Below are positions 1,813-8,908 of a stretch of DNA of 41,868 bases, one piece after another. The stretch is from NCBI GenBank assembly GCA_030065815.1, contig JASJCU010000021.1, forward strand, positions 1-41,868, given 5' to 3'. The DNA comes from Gammaproteobacteria bacterium (GTDB lineage Bacteria > Pseudomonadota > Gammaproteobacteria > Chromatiales > Chromatiaceae). The position numbers and the translations under genes are program-made. The notes beneath the pieces were generated by a model, which worked only from the letters and a program-made list of their open reading frames with translations, searched no databases and was not told the DNA's origin. Every line of letters begins with the position of its first letter. Positions within the stretch are counted from its first letter, which is position 1.

Positions 1813-2352
1813 ATGTCTGCGACACCTCTGCGCCGCACCGCCGCGGCACTGGCACTGTTCGGCCTGGTCTCGCCGTCGACCGTCGTGGCCGCATCGCTGC
1901 AGGGCAGCGAATGGATACCGTTGCGTATCGGCGATGACGCGCTGCCGCCCGACACCGCGGCATTCGTGCAGTTCCACAGCAAGGGCCGGCTGTTGGGCCA
2001 TGGCGGCTGCAACCGCCTGTTCGCCGACTACGACGCGCACGACGGGCGGATCTTCGTCGGCCCGGTCGCGGCGACGCGCATGGCCTGCACCGCCAGTGTG
2101 ATGGCGCGTGAGGCGGCACTCGCCGGCGCACTCGAGAACGCGCGGACGTATCGACGCGACGGCATCCAGCTGGTGCTGTTCGACGCCGCTCAGGTGCCGA
2201 TCCTGGAGCTGCGCCAGACCGACTGGGACCGAGGCCGCGGTCACCGTTCGCCGCGCCGCCGCGTGACTATACTTTGGCAGTCCTGCCGCCCGCCAAGGAT
2301 CTGCCTATGCCGTCACGCAACCGCTCGCGTGCCACGCCCGACCACCCGCTGA
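1813..2352 (+). CDS. META-domain (HslJ-like) exported protein
   Basis: The protein begins with a hydrophobic signal-like segment (about residues 8-27, ending AAS). A META domain follows, recognisable by GSEW near the start, the motif GHGGCNRLFADY around residue 70 and a strand ending near LRQTDWD at about residue 138. META domains occur in HslJ and related envelope proteins linked to stress or antibiotic tolerance; the biochemical role is unclear. After the domain the frame runs on for about 40 arginine-rich residues and ends 46 bases inside the next gene. That tail does not look like part of the fold. Either the stop codon has been lost or the tail is junk. A TATACT box at 2268-2273 could serve the next gene. 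Domain call good, C-terminal boundary doubtful. Confidence 0.75.
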   Translation: MSATPLRRTAAALALFGLVSPSTVVAASLQGSEWIPLRIGDDALPPDTAAFVQFHSKGRLLGHGGCNRLFADYDAHDGRIFVGPVAATRMACTASVMAREAALAGALENARTYRRDGIQLVLFDAAQVPILELRQTDWDRGRGHRSPRRRVTILWQSCRPPRICLCRHATARVPRPTTR

Positions 2353-4157
2353 CCGCGGTCCAGGATGTCCCCGACCTGCGCGACTGGCCGTTCGAACCGT
2401 CGCTGCGCAAACTGCGTCGTTACGTCACGGCGCCGCGCGCGCTGCAGATCCTCGACCAACAACGCGAGGGCGCGTGCACCGGCTTCGGCCTCGCCGCGGT
2501 CGTCGATCTGCTGAACAAGCGCCGCGGCAGCAAGGTGCGGGTCAGCCCGCGCATGCTCTACGAGATGGCCAAGCTGCACGACGAGTGGCCCGGCGAGGAC
2601 TACGCCGGCTCGAGCTGCCGCGGCGCGATAAAGGGCTGGTACAACATGGGCGTGTGCAGCGACGCCAAATGGCCGTATGTCGACGGCAAGCCGGGGTCGC
2701 TGACGGTCGCACGCGCCAAGGCCGCACGTGACAACACGATCGGCGCCTATTACCGGGTGCAGCCGGCGATCGCCGATTTCCATGCCGCGCTCAACGAGGC
2801 CGGCGCGATCTACTGCTCGGCGCAGACCCACAGCGGCTGGCTGCGGCCCAACGCGCGCAGCGGCGTGATCCCGTACCGCAAGACACCGCAGGGCGGGCAC
2901 GCGTTCGCGATCGTCGGTTACAACAGCAAGGGCTTCTGGGTGCAGAACTCGTGGGGCCGGCGCTGGGGCAAGTCGGGACTCGGCCTGTGGTCGTACGAGG
3001 ACTGGCTCGACAACCTGATGGACGCCTGGGTGTTCAGCCTGGCGCTGCCGACGCCGCAGATCTGGCACCTGCCGCAGACCAGCGAGCGCAACCGCAGTGG
3101 CGTGTCGCTGCGCGGCAGCCCGGCGCGCAGCGAGATCGCCGGGCATTTCATCCATGTCGACGACGGCCGTTTCCACACCCGCGGTCGCTACTGGAGCAAC
3201 GCCGGCGACGTGCGCGAGACCGCACGCCTGGTCGCCGGCAGCGGCGCCAAGTACCGCCACCTGCTGCTGTACGCGCACGGTGGCCTGAACTCGCCGCGCG
3301 ACTCGGCGCGGCGCATCGCGGCGATGAAGGAGACGTTCAAGGCCAACGGCATCTACCCGTATCACTTCATGTACGACACCGGCATCGTCGAGGAGCTCAA
3401 GGACGTCGTGCTGCGGCGTGGCGATGCCAGCGCGGCGCGTGCCGGTGGCCTGTCGGACTGGAGCGATCGTCTGCTGGAGTGGGGCACGCGTATCCCGGGC
3501 AGGGCGCTGTGGCGTGAGATGAAAGACGGTGCGCGCCTGCCGTTCCTGCCGCAACGCGCCGGCAGCGAGACGCTGGCGATCTGGCTGACCGAGATGGCGC
3601 GCCGCAACGCGGCGAAGCTCGATGTGCATATCTGCGGTCACAGCACCGGCGCCATCCTGCTCGCGCGCCTGCTCGAGACCATGGAAGACCTCGCACCGAC
3701 GCTGCGCATCAAGAGCTGCACCCTGCTCGCACCGGCCGCGACCACGGACCTGTTCGAGAGCCACTATTACCCGTACCTGGTCGCGCCGCCCGGCACCTTC
3801 GGTATCGACGGCATGCAGGTGATCAACCTCGACGACCGCCTGGAACGCGATGACACGGTCGCCGGGATGTACCGCAAGTCCCTGCTCTACCTGGTCGCGA
3901 ACGCGTTCGAGGAAGACCTGCCGCAGGACCTGCTCGGCCTGCACAAGGACGCCGACGCGCTGCAGGCGCGCGCCAAGATGGCGGCGGTCGCCGACCGCTT
4001 CACCTTGCATGTCGCCGACGGCCAGGTCAGCGACGTCACCGAGAGCACGACCCACAGCGGTTTCGACAACGACGTCAAGACCATGAACCACGTGCTGCGA
4101 ACGATCCTCGGCGCCGCACCGGCACGACCGTTCGATCGCGACACGCTCGATTACTGA
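2307..4157 (+). CDS. Papain-like cysteine protease fused to a serine alpha/beta hydrolase
   Basis: This 616-residue protein has two enzyme domains and no signal peptide or membrane segment. Residues ~20-245 look like a papain (C1A) fold: Gln51/52 and Cys57 in QQREGACTGF, His198 in GGHAFAIVGYN, and Asn214 in VQNSWGRRWG, so the full Q-C-H-N set is present. Residues ~310-600 look like a lipase-type alpha/beta hydrolase: an oxyanion HGG in YAHGGLN (322-328), nucleophile Ser446 in GHSTG, and a candidate catalytic His583 in TTHSGF. There is no inhibitory propeptide before the protease domain. The next gene, 12 bases downstream, encodes a muramidase, so the two are probably co-transcribed. I infer a cell-targeting or lytic role (effector, endolysin-like or predation-related). 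A cytoplasmic housekeeping role cannot be excluded. Domain calls are strong; function is open. Confidence 0.8.
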   Translation: MPSRNRSRATPDHPLTAVQDVPDLRDWPFEPSLRKLRRYVTAPRALQILDQQREGACTGFGLAAVVDLLNKRRGSKVRVSPRMLYEMAKLHDEWPGEDYAGSSCRGAIKGWYNMGVCSDAKWPYVDGKPGSLTVARAKAARDNTIGAYYRVQPAIADFHAALNEAGAIYCSAQTHSGWLRPNARSGVIPYRKTPQGGHAFAIVGYNSKGFWVQNSWGRRWGKSGLGLWSYEDWLDNLMDAWVFSLALPTPQIWHLPQTSERNRSGVSLRGSPARSEIAGHFIHVDDGRFHTRGRYWSNAGDVRETARLVAGSGAKYRHLLLYAHGGLNSPRDSARRIAAMKETFKANGIYPYHFMYDTGIVEELKDVVLRRGDASAARAGGLSDWSDRLLEWGTRIPGRALWREMKDGARLPFLPQRAGSETLAIWLTEMARRNAAKLDVHICGHSTGAILLARLLETMEDLAPTLRIKSCTLLAPAATTDLFESHYYPYLVAPPGTFGIDGMQVINLDDRLERDDTVAGMYRKSLLYLVANAFEEDLPQDLLGLHKDADALQARAKMAAVADRFTLHVADGQVSDVTESTTHSGFDNDVKTMNHVLRTILGAAPARPFDRDTLDY

Positions 4158-4169
4158 GGGGGCAAGGCC

Positions 4170-4739
4170 ATGGCCGAATTCAGCGACGCCTACCGACTCA
4201 CGTCGGCGCACGAGGGGGGTTACGTCAACGACCCGGTGGACCGCGGCGGCGAGACCTACCGCGGCATCGCGCGCGTGCACCACCCCGACTGGTCGGGCTG
4301 GAAGCGCGTCGATGCACAGCGCCGCAAGGCCGGCTTCCCGCGCGTGCTCGACCGCGACGCGGCGCTGCAGAAGGCGGTCAAGGCATTCTACAAGCGCGCC
4401 TACTGGGACCGCTTCGACGGCGACGGCATCCCCGACCAGGCGCTGGCCAATGAACTCTACGACACCGCCGTGAACATGGGCGTGCGCCGCGCGGTGCGGT
4501 TTCTGCAGTCGTCGCTGAACCTGCTCAATCGCAACCAGAAGGACTACCGCGACCTGGTCGTCGACGGCTGGTTCGGCGACAAGACCCTGGCGACGCTGCA
4601 GCTGCTGTTGCGCAAGGACCGCGGCAGTGAGCCGCTGGTCAAGATGATGAACATCCAGCAGGGCGCACGCTATGTCGAGATCATGAGTGGTGATGCGCGC
4701 CAGGAGCGTTTCGCGCGGGGGTGGATCAAGCGGGCCTGA
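4170..4739 (+). CDS. GH108 N-acetylmuramidase with peptidoglycan-binding domain
   Basis: The 189-residue product should cleave the glycan strand of peptidoglycan. The N-terminal motif SAHEGGYVNDPVDRGGET carries the family catalytic glutamate (Glu15), and the first ~95 residues fit glycoside hydrolase family 108 (ZliS-like muramidases). A C-terminal helical part, with VDGWFGDKTLATLQ, fits the linked peptidoglycan-binding module (PG_binding_3 type). There is no signal peptide, as in phage endolysins, GH108 toxins and some type VI effectors, which need another export route. The start ATG at 4170 follows GAGGGGGCAAGGCC. The gene lies 12 bases after the protease/hydrolase gene on the same strand. 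No holin, immunity protein or phage structural gene is visible nearby. Confidence 0.9.
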   Translation: MAEFSDAYRLTSAHEGGYVNDPVDRGGETYRGIARVHHPDWSGWKRVDAQRRKAGFPRVLDRDAALQKAVKAFYKRAYWDRFDGDGIPDQALANELYDTAVNMGVRRAVRFLQSSLNLLNRNQKDYRDLVVDGWFGDKTLATLQLLLRKDRGSEPLVKMMNIQQGARYVEIMSGDARQERFARGWIKRA

Positions 4740-4830
4740 CGGTTCTTCCTGCGCCGAGGCTGTTGGGATCGTTTTGGTTCGCGCTGACGCGCGGGGTTTG
4801 TTTTGAATGCGCTCGGCGGAGCGCGCCCGC

Positions 4831-4864
4831 CCTTCTTTCTTTTGCTTGCCCAAAAGAAAGAAGG
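4831..4864. repeat. Perfect 14-bp stem-loop, left copy
   Basis: CCTTCTTTCTTTTG, a six-base loop CTTGCC, then CAAAAGAAAGAAGG: a perfect 14-bp stem that is pyrimidine on one arm and purine on the other. It forms the inner end of the left inverted-repeat arm. Its loop is identical to that of the right copy (reverse complement), while the stem differs at several positions that remain paired. It may act as a terminator for either convergent gene, but no run of T follows. Confidence 0.85.
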
Positions 4865-5254
4865 CAAAGAAAAGGGCACCCCGAAGGCTTGGTCGGCGCT
4901 GCGCGCCGACTGCCCTGCGCTCCTCGGCACAAAACGGGCGCTGCGGAACTCCCTCGCTGCGCTCGGTCAGACAGTCCTCGCGCTGATCCGTTTTGTACCT
5001 GCGGTGCTCGGCTGCACCAACGGGGACCCCGGGGGCTCCGTAGCCGGTCGTGGCGGTCTCGGGCATAGCCTTCAAACCTGCAGTATGCACCCCAGTCCCG
5101 TTGACGCCGCCGAGCATCGCAGGGGTTTTCGGAGACAAGCGCGTGCATGTCTGAGCGATCGGAGATCGCGAGTTCACGCGCGCCGGAAACGCCGAGAAGC
5201 GCAGGGAACCCCTCGCCAACGGCGAGGGGCAAGTCGTCGGGGGCCTTTCTTTTG

Positions 5255-5288
5255 GGTACTTTTCTTTGGGCAAGCAAAGAAAAGTACC
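5255..5288. repeat. Perfect 14-bp stem-loop, right copy
   Basis: GGTACTTTTCTTTG, loop GGCAAG, then CAAAGAAAAGTACC: a perfect 14-bp stem. Read on the minus strand its loop is CTTGCC, the same as in the copy at 4831-4864. Five stem positions differ between copies and each change is matched on the opposite arm, so the pairing itself appears to be kept. Confidence 0.85.
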
Positions 5289-5420
5289 GCGGGCGCGCGC
5301 CGCCGAGCGCTTTCAAAATCAAACCCCGCGCGTCAGCGCGAACCAAACCCCCATCCACCCCAAATCAGCGCCGGGCTCCAAAACACCAACCGCAGGTACA
5401 CGCCGCCGGCAAATCCCGAT

Positions 5421-7508
5421 TCACACACCCGCATACTGGACCTTGTGCCCGATCCAGCGATGGATCAGCGGCGCGACCCGCTCCGGGTGCTCGTCGAGCA
5501 GGCGGTCGGCCAGTGCCTGCACGTCGGCGACCATGTCCTGGTCGCGCAGCAGGTCGGCGATACGGAACTGCATCTCGCCGGTCTGGCGGGTCCCCAGCAC
5601 CTCGCCGGGGCCGCGGATCTCGAGGTCGCGGCGGGCGATCTCGAAACCGTCGCTGGTCTCGCGCATGACGCCGAGCCGCTCCTGCGCGACCTCGCCGAGC
5701 GGCGGGTGGTACAGCAGCACGCAATGGCTCTGTTGGGCGCCGCGTCCGACGCGGCCGCGCAGCTGGTGCAGTTGCGACAGGCCAAGCCGTTCGGCGTTCT
5801 CGATCACCATCAGGCTCGCGTTCGGCACGTCGACACCGACCTCGACGACCGTGGTCGCGACCAGCAGGTCGATCTGCGCGTCCTTGAACGCGCCCATGAC
5901 GGCCTCCTTGTCGGCCGCCTTCAGGCGGCCGTGCACGAGGCCGACGCGCAGTCCCTCGAGCGCGTCGGCCAGCGCCGCCGCGGTGTCCTCGGCGGCCTGC
6001 GCCTGCAGCGCCTCGGATTCCTCGATCAGCGTGCACACCCAGTACGCCTGGCGACCCTCGCGGCAGGCCAGCGCGACGCGCTCGACGACCCGGTCGCGGC
6101 GGCCGTCGGCGACGACGACCGTCGACACGGGCGTGCGTCCCGGCGGCAGCTCGTCGATCACCGACAGGTCGAGGTCGGCATACGCGGTCATCGCCAGCGT
6201 GCGCGGGATCGGCGTCGCGGTCATGACGATCTGGTGGGGTACCTGCTGCCCGGCGCCCTTTTCGCGCAGCGCCAGGCGCTGGTGCACGCCGAAGCGGTGC
6301 TGCTCGTCGACGATGACGAGGCCGAGACGGGCGAACACGACGTCGTCCTGGAACAGCGCATGGGTGCCGACGACCAGCGGCAGCGAGCCGTCGGCCAGTG
6401 CATCCACGGTAACCGCACGCCGCTTGCCCTTGTTGCGGCCGCTGAGCCAGCCGACGTCGAGCCCGAGCGGTACCAGCCAGTCGCGGAAATTGCGCAGGTG
6501 CTGTTCGGCGAGTAGTTCGGTCGGTGCCATCAGCGCGACCTGGTGGCCGGCCTCGATGCAGGCCAGCGCCGCCAGTGCCGCGACGATGGTCTTGCCGGAC
6601 CCGACATCACCCTGCACCAGGCGCAGCGCCGGATGTTGCTGCCCGAGGTCGCCTTCGATCTGTGCGAGCACGCGTTGCTGCGCGTCGGTCAGCGTGAACG
6701 GCAGCGCGTCGAGCAGGGCGCGCTGCAGGCGGCCGTCGCCACTGAGCGCCGGCGCGCCGCGCTGACGCTGGCGGCGGCGCAGCACGCGCAGACTGAGCTG
6801 GTGGGCGAGCAGTTCCTCGAACGCCAGGCGGCGCTGCGCCGGGTGGCCGGCCGCCGACAACAGGCGCTGCGACTCCTCGGGTGGCGGCCGGTGCAGCAGC
6901 CGCACGGCCGCGGCGAGCGGCGGCATGTGGCGCTCCGCGAGCACGCTGTCCGGCAACAGTTCCTGCAGGCCGCCGCGCTGCAGCTGGTCGAGCGCGCGCG
7001 CGCTGAGGTCGCGCCAGGTCAGCTGGTGCATGCCCTCGGTCGTCGGGTAGATCGGGGTCAGTGCCTGCTCGACCGCGGCCGGTTCACCGTCGGCGACGTA
7101 CTGCACCTCCGGGTGCACCAGTTCGTAGCTCTGTGGCCCGTTGCGCACCTCGCCGAAGCAGCGTAGGCAGGCGCCGCGCGTCATGTTGGCCTGCTGCGCG
7201 GCGCTGAAATGAAAGAAGCGCAGCGTGATGCTGCCGCTGCCGTCGGCAAGACGCACGAGCAGCGAACGTCGCCGCCCGTAGCGGATATCGGCGAGCTCGA
7301 CGTCGCCCTGGATGACCGCCTGGTCGCCCGGACGCAGGCTGCCGATCGGCACGATACGGGTGCGGTCCTGGTAACGCACCGGCAGATGGAACAGCAGGTC
7401 CTGGACGCTGTCGATGCCGAGCCGTGCGAGGCGCTCGGCGTTCTTCGGGCCGACGCCCTTCAGCGTCGTGACCGGCGTCTCGGCGAGCGAAGCGGGTGCG
7501 GAGGACAC
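5421..7508 (-). CDS. recG: ATP-dependent DNA helicase RecG
   Basis: RecG drives branch migration and regression of stalled replication forks. The 695-residue product matches the usual length. The N terminus has the wedge-domain start LKGVGPKNAERLARLGI and an OB-type region with RYGRRRSLLVRLADGSGSI. The helicase core shows Walker A GDVGSGKT, the DEQHRFGV box, TATPIPRTLA, and late motifs TTVVEVGVDVPNA and HQLRGRVGRG. I chose the GTG at 7508 because it gives a start (VSSAPASLAETPVTTLKGVG) of family-typical length; the frame stays open further upstream but encodes arginine-rich nonsense. No strong ribosome-binding site is visible. It is divergent from the HDOD gene, with 146 bases between the starts. 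Confidence 0.95.
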   Translation of the reverse strand: MSSAPASLAETPVTTLKGVGPKNAERLARLGIDSVQDLLFHLPVRYQDRTRIVPIGSLRPGDQAVIQGDVELADIRYGRRRSLLVRLADGSGSITLRFFHFSAAQQANMTRGACLRCFGEVRNGPQSYELVHPEVQYVADGEPAAVEQALTPIYPTTEGMHQLTWRDLSARALDQLQRGGLQELLPDSVLAERHMPPLAAAVRLLHRPPPEESQRLLSAAGHPAQRRLAFEELLAHQLSLRVLRRRQRQRGAPALSGDGRLQRALLDALPFTLTDAQQRVLAQIEGDLGQQHPALRLVQGDVGSGKTIVAALAALACIEAGHQVALMAPTELLAEQHLRNFRDWLVPLGLDVGWLSGRNKGKRRAVTVDALADGSLPLVVGTHALFQDDVVFARLGLVIVDEQHRFGVHQRLALREKGAGQQVPHQIVMTATPIPRTLAMTAYADLDLSVIDELPPGRTPVSTVVVADGRRDRVVERVALACREGRQAYWVCTLIEESEALQAQAAEDTAAALADALEGLRVGLVHGRLKAADKEAVMGAFKDAQIDLLVATTVVEVGVDVPNASLMVIENAERLGLSQLHQLRGRVGRGAQQSHCVLLYHPPLGEVAQERLGVMRETSDGFEIARRDLEIRGPGEVLGTRQTGEMQFRIADLLRDQDMVADVQALADRLLDEHPERVAPLIHRWIGHKVQYAGV

Positions 7509-7654
7509 CGGGCGAGCATACGTAACGCCCGTTCCGCCAACAAGCCTGGCAACAGCCGGCCTCAAGTCGCTGGCCGGCACAGCCGCTACCGGTAGAGGGA
7601 CCACGCCCCGCAGCAACCGCGAACCGGCTGTGGCGACACAGGAATTCACAACGG

Positions 7655-8908
7655 ATGTTTGGATCGGGTACGCCAACGCAACTGTCACCGGCCGCGACTC
7701 CGCGCGCCGCCGACCTAGGGCGCCTCGCACCCTATGCCGGGTTCGCCGGTGCCACGCTGGCGGCGATCGCCGACCAGTCGACGGTCGAGGCGCTGGCGTC
7801 AGGCAAGGTCCCGGCGCGCTGGTTCGACGACGCTGCGGTATTCCTGCAGTCCGGCCAAATCGAACTGCGCACCGCGAACCGCGGCCGGGTGTTCCTGTCC
7901 AGCGTGTCGCCGCCGGCGCGCTTCCCGCTGCCGGCACCCGATGCGGTACGCATCAGTGCGGTCGGCGCGACGACCTTCATCCGCGTGCCGCACGCGGCCC
8001 TGCCGGCGGGCCCGGCGGCAGACGGCGGGCCGACCGCGGACGGCGCGGCGCCGCACCTGTCATCGCTGCGCCGCCTGCTGGACGCGAAACTGGCCAGCGG
8101 CGAGATCGCGCTGCCGAGCATGCCCGACCTCGCGGTCAAGCTGAACAGTGCGCTGCGCACGCCCGACAACGGCAATGACGACCACGACGTCGCCAAGCTG
8201 ATCCAGCTCGACCCGGCGCTGGCAACGAAGGTCATCCACGTCGTCAACAGCGCGGCGTTCCGCTTCAACCGCAAGGCGTCGACGGTGCAACAGGCGGTCA
8301 CCCGCCTCGGCCGCGACCGTGTCCGCAACCTCGCGGTCGCCTTCCTGCTGCGGCATGCCTTCCATACCGACTCCGCGGCGCTGCAGCGCCGCGCCCAGGC
8401 GCTGTGGCTGCGCAGTTGCCAGATCGCCGCGATCAGCTTCACGCTGGCCCGGCAGCTGTCGACGCTCGACCCGGAACGGGCGATGCTCGCCGGCCTGATC
8501 CACCTGATCGGGCGCCTGCCGGTGCTCGGCCTCGCCAACCGCCATCCCGAGCTGTTCGGCAGCCGGTCGCTGCTCGACGCCGCGATGCAGGCCTTCGACA
8601 AGCCGCTCGGCAGGCTGGTCCTCGAACGCTGGTCGTTCGACGCCGACATGCTCGATGCCGTCGCCCATGCCGGCGACTGGACGCGGGTCGGTGCCGCGCT
8701 GCCGGACTATGCCGACGTCGTCGTGCTCGCGCAGCTGCATGCCGACATCGGCAGGCCGGGCGCCGCGCGGCGCCCGTCGCTGCCCGACGTGCCGGCCTTT
8801 CAGAAGCTGGAGCTCGGCAAACTCACGCCCAACAAGTCACTGCAGGCGCTCGAAGACGCCGACCACGAGATCCTCGAGCTGCGCCGCATCCTGTCGCGCT
8901 CGGGCTGA
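7655..8908 (+). CDS. HDOD-domain signalling protein
   Basis: The product is 417 residues. Residues ~150-340 form an HDOD domain, a degenerate HD fold without the metal site, used in bacterial signalling. Key stretches are IALPSMPDLAVKLNSAL, IQLDPALATKVIHVVNSAAFRFNRK, VQQAVTRLGRDRVRNLAVAFLL and AMLAGLIHLIGRLPVL, where the second HD position is lost. Residues ~30-115 are strand-rich and look like a worn cyclic-nucleotide-binding-type beta roll, but no ligand motif is clear. A proline/alanine-rich linker (about 112-135) separates the two. A weak AGGA lies upstream of the ATG. No partner GGDEF or kinase gene adjoins it. HDOD proteins often regulate motility or biofilm; the role here is not determined. 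Confidence 0.88.
   Translation: MFGSGTPTQLSPAATPRAADLGRLAPYAGFAGATLAAIADQSTVEALASGKVPARWFDDAAVFLQSGQIELRTANRGRVFLSSVSPPARFPLPAPDAVRISAVGATTFIRVPHAALPAGPAADGGPTADGAAPHLSSLRRLLDAKLASGEIALPSMPDLAVKLNSALRTPDNGNDDHDVAKLIQLDPALATKVIHVVNSAAFRFNRKASTVQQAVTRLGRDRVRNLAVAFLLRHAFHTDSAALQRRAQALWLRSCQIAAISFTLARQLSTLDPERAMLAGLIHLIGRLPVLGLANRHPELFGSRSLLDAAMQAFDKPLGRLVLERWSFDADMLDAVAHAGDWTRVGAALPDYADVVVLAQLHADIGRPGAARRPSLPDVPAFQKLELGKLTPNKSLQALEDADHEILELRRILSRSG

Follow-up and report, generated by a model that had tools for sequence, protein, structure and literature searches.

The 41,868-nt stretch of DNA analysed here (the window) comes from contig JASJCU010000021.1 of a Gammaproteobacteria bacterium of the Chromatiaceae (assembly GCA_030065815.1, 172 contigs, 98.9% complete). 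Between two convergent genes, one encoding a glycosyl hydrolase 108 / peptidoglycan-binding protein and the other recG, it contains a 575-bp inverted element with two divergent units. This element is probably a dispersed non-autonomous mobile repeat, in which the outward-reading strand of each unit is predicted to fold into a triple-helix pseudoknot. The features of the locus are the following:

4773–5347, no strand: whole two-unit inverted element, 575 bp, the repeat common to other copies in the same genome
4773–4804, minus strand: left terminal inverted repeat, 32 nt, 97% match to 5316–5347, with a GC hairpin inside
5316–5347, plus strand: right terminal inverted repeat (inverted-repeat search)
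4831–5015, minus strand: left unit, 5′ end at 5015, with the 5′ domain and the predicted triple-helix pseudoknot (unit alignment)
5106–5288, plus strand: right unit (unit alignment)
4946–4973, minus strand: apical TGTCTGA...GAGTTC hairpin of the left unit (alignment)
5148–5175, plus strand: apical TGTCTGA...GAGTTC hairpin of the right unit (alignment)
4831–4864, minus strand: stem 2 of the left unit, 14 bp, GGCAAG loop (hairpin search and family alignment)
5255–5288, plus strand: stem 2 of the right unit, 14 bp, GGCAAG loop (hairpin search and family alignment)
4866–4873, minus strand: putative third strand TTTTCTTT of the left unit, parallel to the purine strand AAAAGAAA at 4843–4836 (sequence and family statistics)
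5246–5253, plus strand: putative third strand TTTCTTTT of the right unit, parallel to the purine strand AAAGAAAA at 5276–5283 (sequence and family statistics)
4875–4878, minus strand: 5′ strand TGCC of predicted pseudoknot stem 1, left unit; partner, loop GGCA at 4850–4847
5243–5245, plus strand: 5′ strand GCC of predicted pseudoknot stem 1, right unit, 3 bp; partner, GGC at 5269–5271
4170–4739, plus strand: gene for the glycosyl hydrolase 108 / peptidoglycan-binding protein (open reading frame, ORF, and protein scan)
5421–7937, minus strand: recG (ORF as listed), convergent with the preceding gene

The arms of the inverted repeat (4793–4880 and 5239–5326) are 88 nt long and 78% complementary, and together with the 32-nt terminal pieces comprise about 105 bases. 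Two perfect 14-bp hairpins, 4831–4864 and 5255–5288, share the 6-nt loop CTTGCC, which is GGCAAG on the other strand. An initial annotation of this DNA had described the large inverted repeat and both hairpins, which the searches recover, but had placed the hairpins at the ends of the arms; they actually lie inside them, and the outermost part is the further 32-nt inverted repeat. Its reading of five compensated stem differences is correct for all five: the stems CCTTCTTTCTTTTG and GGTACTTTTCTTTG are unlike at positions 1, 2, 4, 9 and 10, each change being matched on the other arm. Where the units differ at stem positions 9 and 10, the third strand changes to match. The pattern CTTTTNNTTGGGCAAGCAANNAAAAG, with up to three mismatches, occurs twice in the window and in none of 100 whole-window dinucleotide shuffles.

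Each unit is about 185 nt long, the left one running on the minus strand from 5015 to 4831 and the right one on the plus strand from 5106 to 5288. The outward strand of each would fold into a 5′ domain followed by an H-type pseudoknot, in which stem 1 would be formed by GTGCC paired with the hairpin loop and stem 2 by the 14-bp hairpin. Stem 2 was analysed in a cross-phylum alignment of 51 sequences, pre-filtered for a mostly paired stem: 98.6% of the cells pair, 10 of the 14 pairs show double changes, and the covariation score is 0.381 compared with 0.105 after shuffling. The initial annotation had argued that pairing matters, with uncompensated changes in other copies as the counter-evidence to look for; nearly all changes are compensated. 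It had also regarded the loop as fixed, which holds for the two window copies but not for the family, where the loop varies together with its 5′ flank. To assemble the family, the best 150 of 180 and the best 150 of 207 matches were taken from two alignments (97 and 99 loci). From these 300, 43 that overlapped a better match and 8 without a usable hairpin were removed, leaving 249 units, 228 of them distinct. Loop and flank partners in the latter set include GGCAAG with TGCC, GACAAG with TGTC, GGCCAG with GGCC, GCCACG with GTGGC, GCGAAG with TCGC and CAGC with GCTG. Averaged over 57 loop types, a 4-bp Watson-Crick match between loop and flank occurs in 73.5%, compared with 18.8 ± 4.4% when the loops are shuffled among types (0 of 300 shuffles). 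In a hold-out set of 59 sites (a region retrieved twice being counted once), from 27 genomes new to the analysis that came from the phylum listing of the core covariance model R1, the match is 65.5% against 25% shuffled (28 loop types, 0 of 1000). Some loop types have no flank match, among them ACAA (0 of 5) and ACGA (0 of 4), in which the scoring script assigns part of the loop to the stem. The conservation of the CTTGCC/GGCAAG loop is explained by its pairing with the GTGCC directly 5′ of the hairpin. In an alignment of 31 complete units, 88.6% of the cells of the four pseudoknot pairs are paired, and double changes occur in three of these pairs; the outermost pair fails in 8 of the 31. The loop-to-flank helix expected of an H-type pseudoknot is seen as covariation, in the hold-out set as well.

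Between GTGCC and the hairpin lies a pyrimidine run that mirrors the 5′ strand of the stem and is the parallel Hoogsteen complement of the 3′ purine strand. This joining strand would lie in the major groove of stem 2 as a third strand, the triples along the tract being T.A-T, C.G-C, G.T-A and T.C-G. Purine strands and their third strands pair off as AAAGAAAA with TTTCTTTT, AAAAGAAA with TTTTCTTT and AAGAGAAA with TTCTCTTT; interrupted tracts are also matched (AATAGAAA with TTGTCTTT, AAATGAAA with TTTGCTTT, AAAGATAA with TTTCTGTT), and tract lengths covary (AAAGAAAAA with TTTCTTTTT, AAAGAAA with TTTCTTT). Scored with a 28-nt flank and a 7-nt tract, the 228 units (26 tract types) give a mean parallel match of 6.34 of 7, against 5.51 ± 0.11 when the flanks are shuffled among types (0 of 1000). 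An initial version with a 16-nt flank and an 8-nt tract, in which some scoring windows were misplaced, pointed the same way (parallel 6.17 against 5.28, 29 types, 0 of 5000; direct repeat 5.72 against 5.39, 20 of 2000). In tracts of this lead set that are not mirror-symmetric, an exact parallel third strand is found in 46 of 70 and an exact direct repeat in 4 of 70. The tally of oppositions, which covers 227 of the 228 units and is biased upward by its use of best-match windows, amounts to 1309 T.A, 229 C.G, 12 G.T, 12 T.C and 27 of all other kinds; in the same windows, interruptions have G opposite T in 12 of 14 cases and T opposite C in 12 of 13. G.TA and T.CG are the usual tolerated interruptions in pyrimidine-motif triplexes.

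For the hold-out set the rule was fixed beforehand, and 56 of the 59 sites could be tested. The parallel match is 6.71 of 7 against 5.76 ± 0.17 shuffled (9 types, 0 of 1000), while the direct repeat reaches 5.98 against 5.75 (72 of 1000). Exact matches over all seven bases number 39 of 56 for the parallel third strand and 32 of 56 for the direct repeat, a comparison that is uninformative for mirror-symmetric tracts; among the non-mirror tracts 14 of 31 have an exact parallel match. Stem, loop with flank, and third strand covary in both sets, and a third strand parallel to the purine strand of stem 2 can be read from the sequences. Base-triple covariation, to our knowledge rare in natural sequences, is strong sequence-only evidence for a triple helix; one defined strand is predicted to form an H-type pseudoknot with a major-groove triplex. 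The structural part of a further suggestion in the initial annotation, a bound nucleic-acid structure, is well supported by these sequences.

On the strand of the unit, stem 2 contains 217 G-U oppositions, 7 A-C and 32 other mismatches, counted among related sequences and with a model search that somewhat favours G-U. With G-U so much more frequent than A-C, selection appears to act on the outward-reading single strand. A linker of 1–2 nt across an outer stem of 4–5 bp suits the deep groove of A-form RNA in pseudoknot geometry, which favours RNA; the folded molecule is probably RNA rather than single-stranded DNA. The G-U bias does not decide between the two, because G-T pairs in single-stranded DNA give the same bias, and pyrimidine triplexes can form in both RNA and DNA (PMC4666352).

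The 5′ domain was examined in the 31 units, which range from the genome of the window to metagenome-assembled genomes (MAGs) titled Desulfobacterota and were selected for two motifs (36 found, 31 aligned). A variable stem is closed by GCCGAGCAYCG...CGAGRAGCGC and carries TGTYTGA...GAGTT at the tip. Of the cells of the named pairs, 95.7% are standard, column pair 12–116 is UA in 16 units and CG in 13, and the full-unit covariation score is 0.473 compared with 0.136 shuffled. In other lineages, two AYGGAY hairpins replace the tip of the 5′ domain. There, the Rfam family TwoAYGGAY (RF01731), described in 2010 as a candidate structured RNA, lies on the same strand directly upstream of the core: locus L108 scores 55.3 bits with a gathering score of 43, and the family is also found 5′ of the core at several places in genomes G167, G262, G031, G148 and G284. 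The L108 match stops at GUGCCCUUU, just before the hairpin, so the TwoAYGGAY model excludes the pseudoknot. Window units have another apical domain: TwoAYGGAY gives no match in window positions 4500–5600 at E-values up to 5, and none in the genome of the window. An Rfam scan of 11 core loci gives a TwoAYGGAY match in two, and 18 other core loci have no Rfam match at gathering score. TwoAYGGAY is present in 17 of 274 genomes of the class (13 above the cut-off); 8 of the 17 are R1-positive, with 4.2 expected, so the modules also occur apart. When 20 regions found through TwoAYGGAY rather than R1 were viewed over the 130 nt after the match, a hairpin with a matching T-run was seen in G108 (L332, L333, L334), less clearly in G183 (L337), and in the R1-positive G070, G179 and G290. 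Within those 130 nt, G047, G095, G112, G161, G207 and G280 have no such hairpin and T-run, and G239 is doubtful at best. A third type of 5′ domain was observed in L120, L116 and other Bacteroidota loci, where a hairpin with loop GAAGCCTTGG precedes the core without any Rfam match; its stem differs between Aquimarina and Kordia.

The repeat is not unique in its own genome. A search of the whole genome, as the initial annotation had proposed for the hairpin, gives 65 BLAST matches at E ≤ 1, a number that includes both orientations and many overlapping or weak matches, and R1 finds at least 21 units, with 21 candidates scored. For eleven of these 21, a contig end is no more than 250 nt away, which is expected of repeats because they break assemblies. 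The seven longest copies can be aligned over most of their length, with inner modules and arms exchanged. Pairs of units less than 900 nt apart, in 194 loci with at least one unit, are divergent in 41 cases, convergent in 6 and tandem in 2 after merging identical segments (42, 7 and 2 before), and divergent pairs have 208–580 nt between cores.

An exact 24-nt search of bacterial genomes revealed at least 112 stretches, most with GTGCC-nTTTCTTTTG or a near variant directly 5′ of the hairpin and a few truncated where the locus ends or joined to other sequence. Among the titles listed, isolates carrying the core belong to Dyella, Lysobacter, Pseudoalteromonas, Rodentibacter, Aquimarina, Kordia and Leptobacterium, and MAGs to Desulfobulbus, Selenomonadales, Latescibacterota and Verrucomicrobiaceae. 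As the taxonomic assignment of MAGs can be wrong, the cross-phylum claim rests on the isolates. With E-values that are rough, R1 matches 67 of 274 sampled genomes of the class at E ≤ 0.01 (59 of 222 genera) and 57 of 274 below 1e-5; in the phylum, 57 of 299 genomes match at E ≤ 0.001, 23 of these 57 being from the same class. In the class, roughly one sampled genome in four carries the repeat, which also occurs in several other phyla. Thirty-eight genomes reached through the loci of the 24-nt search carry 1 to 130 copies, with at least 30 in 14 of them and up to 150 candidates scored per genome. The element has no match among phage sequences, its 61-nt core has none in E. coli, and IMG/VR contains one contig with a 22-nt exact pattern. 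In annotated genomes, a DUF484 gene and dapF flank a divergent pair in Pasteurella multocida, and lpdA and aceF flank one unit in Burkholderia.

Mobility can be followed at one orthologous site, where a copy on contig C124 of the same genome and a copy in G006 are in opposite orientation. R1 units are present there in these two genomes only. Measured from where the first gene ends up to a fixed point in the second, the site spans 710 nt in the genome of the window and 628 nt in G006 (inverted); it spans 340 nt in G003, where a relic is recognisable by eye, and 163, 128 and 231 nt at the empty sites of G001, G007 and G008. G002 and G004 have other downstream genes, and the G005 sequence ends there. 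A site occupied in two species, relic in one and empty in three, together with the copy number, favours the non-autonomous mobile repeat that was among the initial suggestions, and provides the empty sites in relatives that had been sought. The inversion between two species at this site (L005 1501–2070, L031 1501–1971) perhaps results from recombination between the arms of the element. Beside recG, R1 finds a unit in the genome of the window and in none of 8 other members of the genus, one of which has only 78 nt of sequence there; since gene order beside recG differs among the relatives, this is not a clean empty-site test. A papain-family protease gene (window 2319–4154) and the glycosyl hydrolase 108 gene adjoin recG in this genome, and six of the seven relatives with sequence at recG have a different, shared ORF there (ending ..LVNE.FLP..), a local rearrangement beside the repeat.

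Comparative data thus support the pairing of stem 2, the pairing of loop and flank, the parallel third strand, a preferred strand, the repeat nature of the element, and presence, absence and inversion at one site. A number of results nevertheless weigh against a mobile repeat with a triplex pseudoknot. Stem 1 of the right window unit has only 3 bp, and one of five full-unit covariation measures is unremarkable (43 pair types against 38.8, 38 of 500). The rule for T and C interruptions was adopted after part of the lead set had been seen; in that set the direct repeat is slightly above its shuffles (5.68 against 5.39, 4 of 1000). An exact seven-base third strand is absent from 24 of 70 non-mirror tracts in the lead set and from 17 of 31 in the hold-out set, where 7 of 31 have an exact direct repeat; in 14 of the 17 hold-out misses six bases match, followed by a G linker. 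A single unit only is present at 103 of the 194 loci, with 46 further loci ending too early to judge a partner, and weak partners may be missed among the best-150 matches. No target-site duplication is visible at 4773/5347 of the window element, and the flanks at the compared orthologous site are too diverged to show one. Profiles for Y1_Tnp, DUF3800 (a neighbour of other Rfam motifs) and RVT_1 have no match in the genome of the window, other mobilising families not having been searched. All 2070 stop-to-stop ORFs located up to 3 kb from the core in 112 loci were compared with one another and yielded no mobilising candidate: the largest clusters come from related Dyella or Lysobacter loci, and in the two cross-phylum clusters (9 and 7 loci) the seven members scanned are ABC transporters and histidine kinases.

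The next best account, though an unlikely one, is that the element acts at the level of DNA, as proposed for BoxC/PIT: a pyrimidine-motif intrastrand triplex or cruciform would form in single-stranded DNA at replication, stalling forks and causing instability, with no role for RNA. A mirror-repeat third strand fits this, as do the inversion and turnover at one site. The BoxC/PIT/TM_ECO repeats (Holder et al. 2015, PMC4666352), which that article links to genome instability, are likewise extragenic, high-copy and partly palindromic, with a predicted intrastrand triplex. They differ in having a G/C-rich purine-motif triplex of class II, whereas the present repeat has a pyrimidine motif in class IV order, inside a pseudoknot (a term absent from the main text of PMC4666352), and a longer conserved unit. 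The exact purine-triplex pattern CCCTCNCCC..GGGNGAGGG..GGGNGAGGG has no match in the window and is found in 14 of 407 loci. Allowing up to two substitutions, 21 such motifs were observed in 17 of 104 loci (for example L104 2102–2136, and L237 1224–1256 and 1302–1334, the latter an inverted pair between two divergent units); for 16 of the 21 the nearest unit is at most 400 nt away, compared with 9.5% of random positions, a proximity that fits a DNA-level element. These loci are not independent, because at least 9 of the 17 are Dyella. Against an action in DNA alone stand the 5′ domain, whose covariation resembles that of a structured RNA and in whose place some relatives have an Rfam RNA family, and the strong, though not decisive, one-strand G-U bias.

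A device at the 3′ end of mRNA, either a bidirectional terminator, as the initial annotation also suggested, or an exonuclease block like some repetitive extragenic palindromic (REP) elements, is improbable. The window copy does lie between convergent genes, and a triple helix at the 3′ end of an RNA can protect it, as in ENE/MALAT1. However, for AT-rich loci (51 sites) the upstream/downstream neighbours are oriented relative to the unit as +/+ in 11, -/- in 9, +/- in 7 and -/+ in 5 by crude ORF calling, with 8 units inside predicted ORFs of 300–708 nt and 11 at their edges. Such near-random orientation speaks against a terminator or untranslated-region device, and terminator-like sites are close to chance (3, with 1.2 ± 1.4 expected).

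A REP element moved as single-stranded DNA by a Y1 tyrosine transposase of the REP-associated type (RAYT) is quite improbable. Like REPs, their doublets (REPINs) and miniature inverted-repeat transposable elements (MITEs), the repeat forms inverted pairs, is extragenic and is presumably mobilised in trans. It has the terminal inverted repeats of a MITE (32 nt, 97%), it is of high copy number with paired inverted hairpins, and Y1_Tnp is found in 26 of 38 searched genomes. Its host, 98.9% complete and with at least 21 units, nevertheless lacks a Y1_Tnp match, as do the repeat-matching G003, G004 and G014. The target-site duplication of a MITE was not seen. The units are several times the length of REPs, which are 20–40 bp (PMC3733652), and a by-eye, unscored view of the unit listing revealed no constant GTAG/CGTC tag at the stem base. 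Finally, that the third strand is a by-product of local T-rich duplication, with no triplex, is very improbable: with all sequences T-rich, chance alone often produces weak matches (shuffled mean 5.5 of 7), and exact direct repeats do occur in hold-out tracts, but the copy is as a rule a mirror rather than a direct repeat (46 and 4 of 70; 14 and 7 of 31), its interruptions follow the triplex rule in best-match windows, and its length covaries.

Returning to the mobile repeat with a triplex pseudoknot, the transcript or single strand may be recognised, or protected from nucleases, through this fold. It would serve as a recognition or protection signal for mobilisation or persistence, the repeat spreading via a putative trans-acting protein that uses it. 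Groove binding, RNA as the molecule, the protein partner and the transposition chemistry are what we infer. More tentatively, it is conceivable that this is a cross-phylum mobile structured RNA, with a 3′ triplex pseudoknot selected on three strands and bound by a putative widespread copying or protecting protein, of which TwoAYGGAY, and perhaps BoxC, would be detached modules. Keeping the fold across several phyla suggests that the shape, beyond the sequence, has a job, and calls for a new partner protein. Triple-helix pseudoknots of the telomerase-RNA type, known elsewhere and also from the SAM-II and preQ1-II riboswitches, similarly place loop 1 pyrimidines in the major groove of stem 2; the present fold is bacterial and repetitive, and homology is not claimed. 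Intrastrand-triplex repeats (BoxC/PIT) and TwoAYGGAY are already known, and intrastrand triplexes had been sought in three bacteria including Haemophilus (Hoyne et al. 2000, via PMC4666352), whose list may overlap with the present repeat. The literature considered, with subscription papers such as that one outside its scope, describes neither this repeat family nor base-triple covariation in a bacterial repeat. An orphan Rfam RNA is placed in a genomic context, is given a 3′ domain and may itself belong to a mobile element, and the 53-nt core makes the role of bacterial intrastrand-triplex repeats testable.

Some further observations concern individual copies. Locus L098, from a record titled Pseudomonas stutzeri NCTC11607, belongs to a 1.9-Mb genome and has a unit flank close to that of Rodentibacter L092, so the species name may be wrong. 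In Lysobacter, unit boundaries are unreadable, the copies being too mixed with other repeats. Some copies contain an extra structured insert in the hairpin tip (L003 on contig C78, 5857–6563; L009 on C166; L054), and related inserts are present across genomes.
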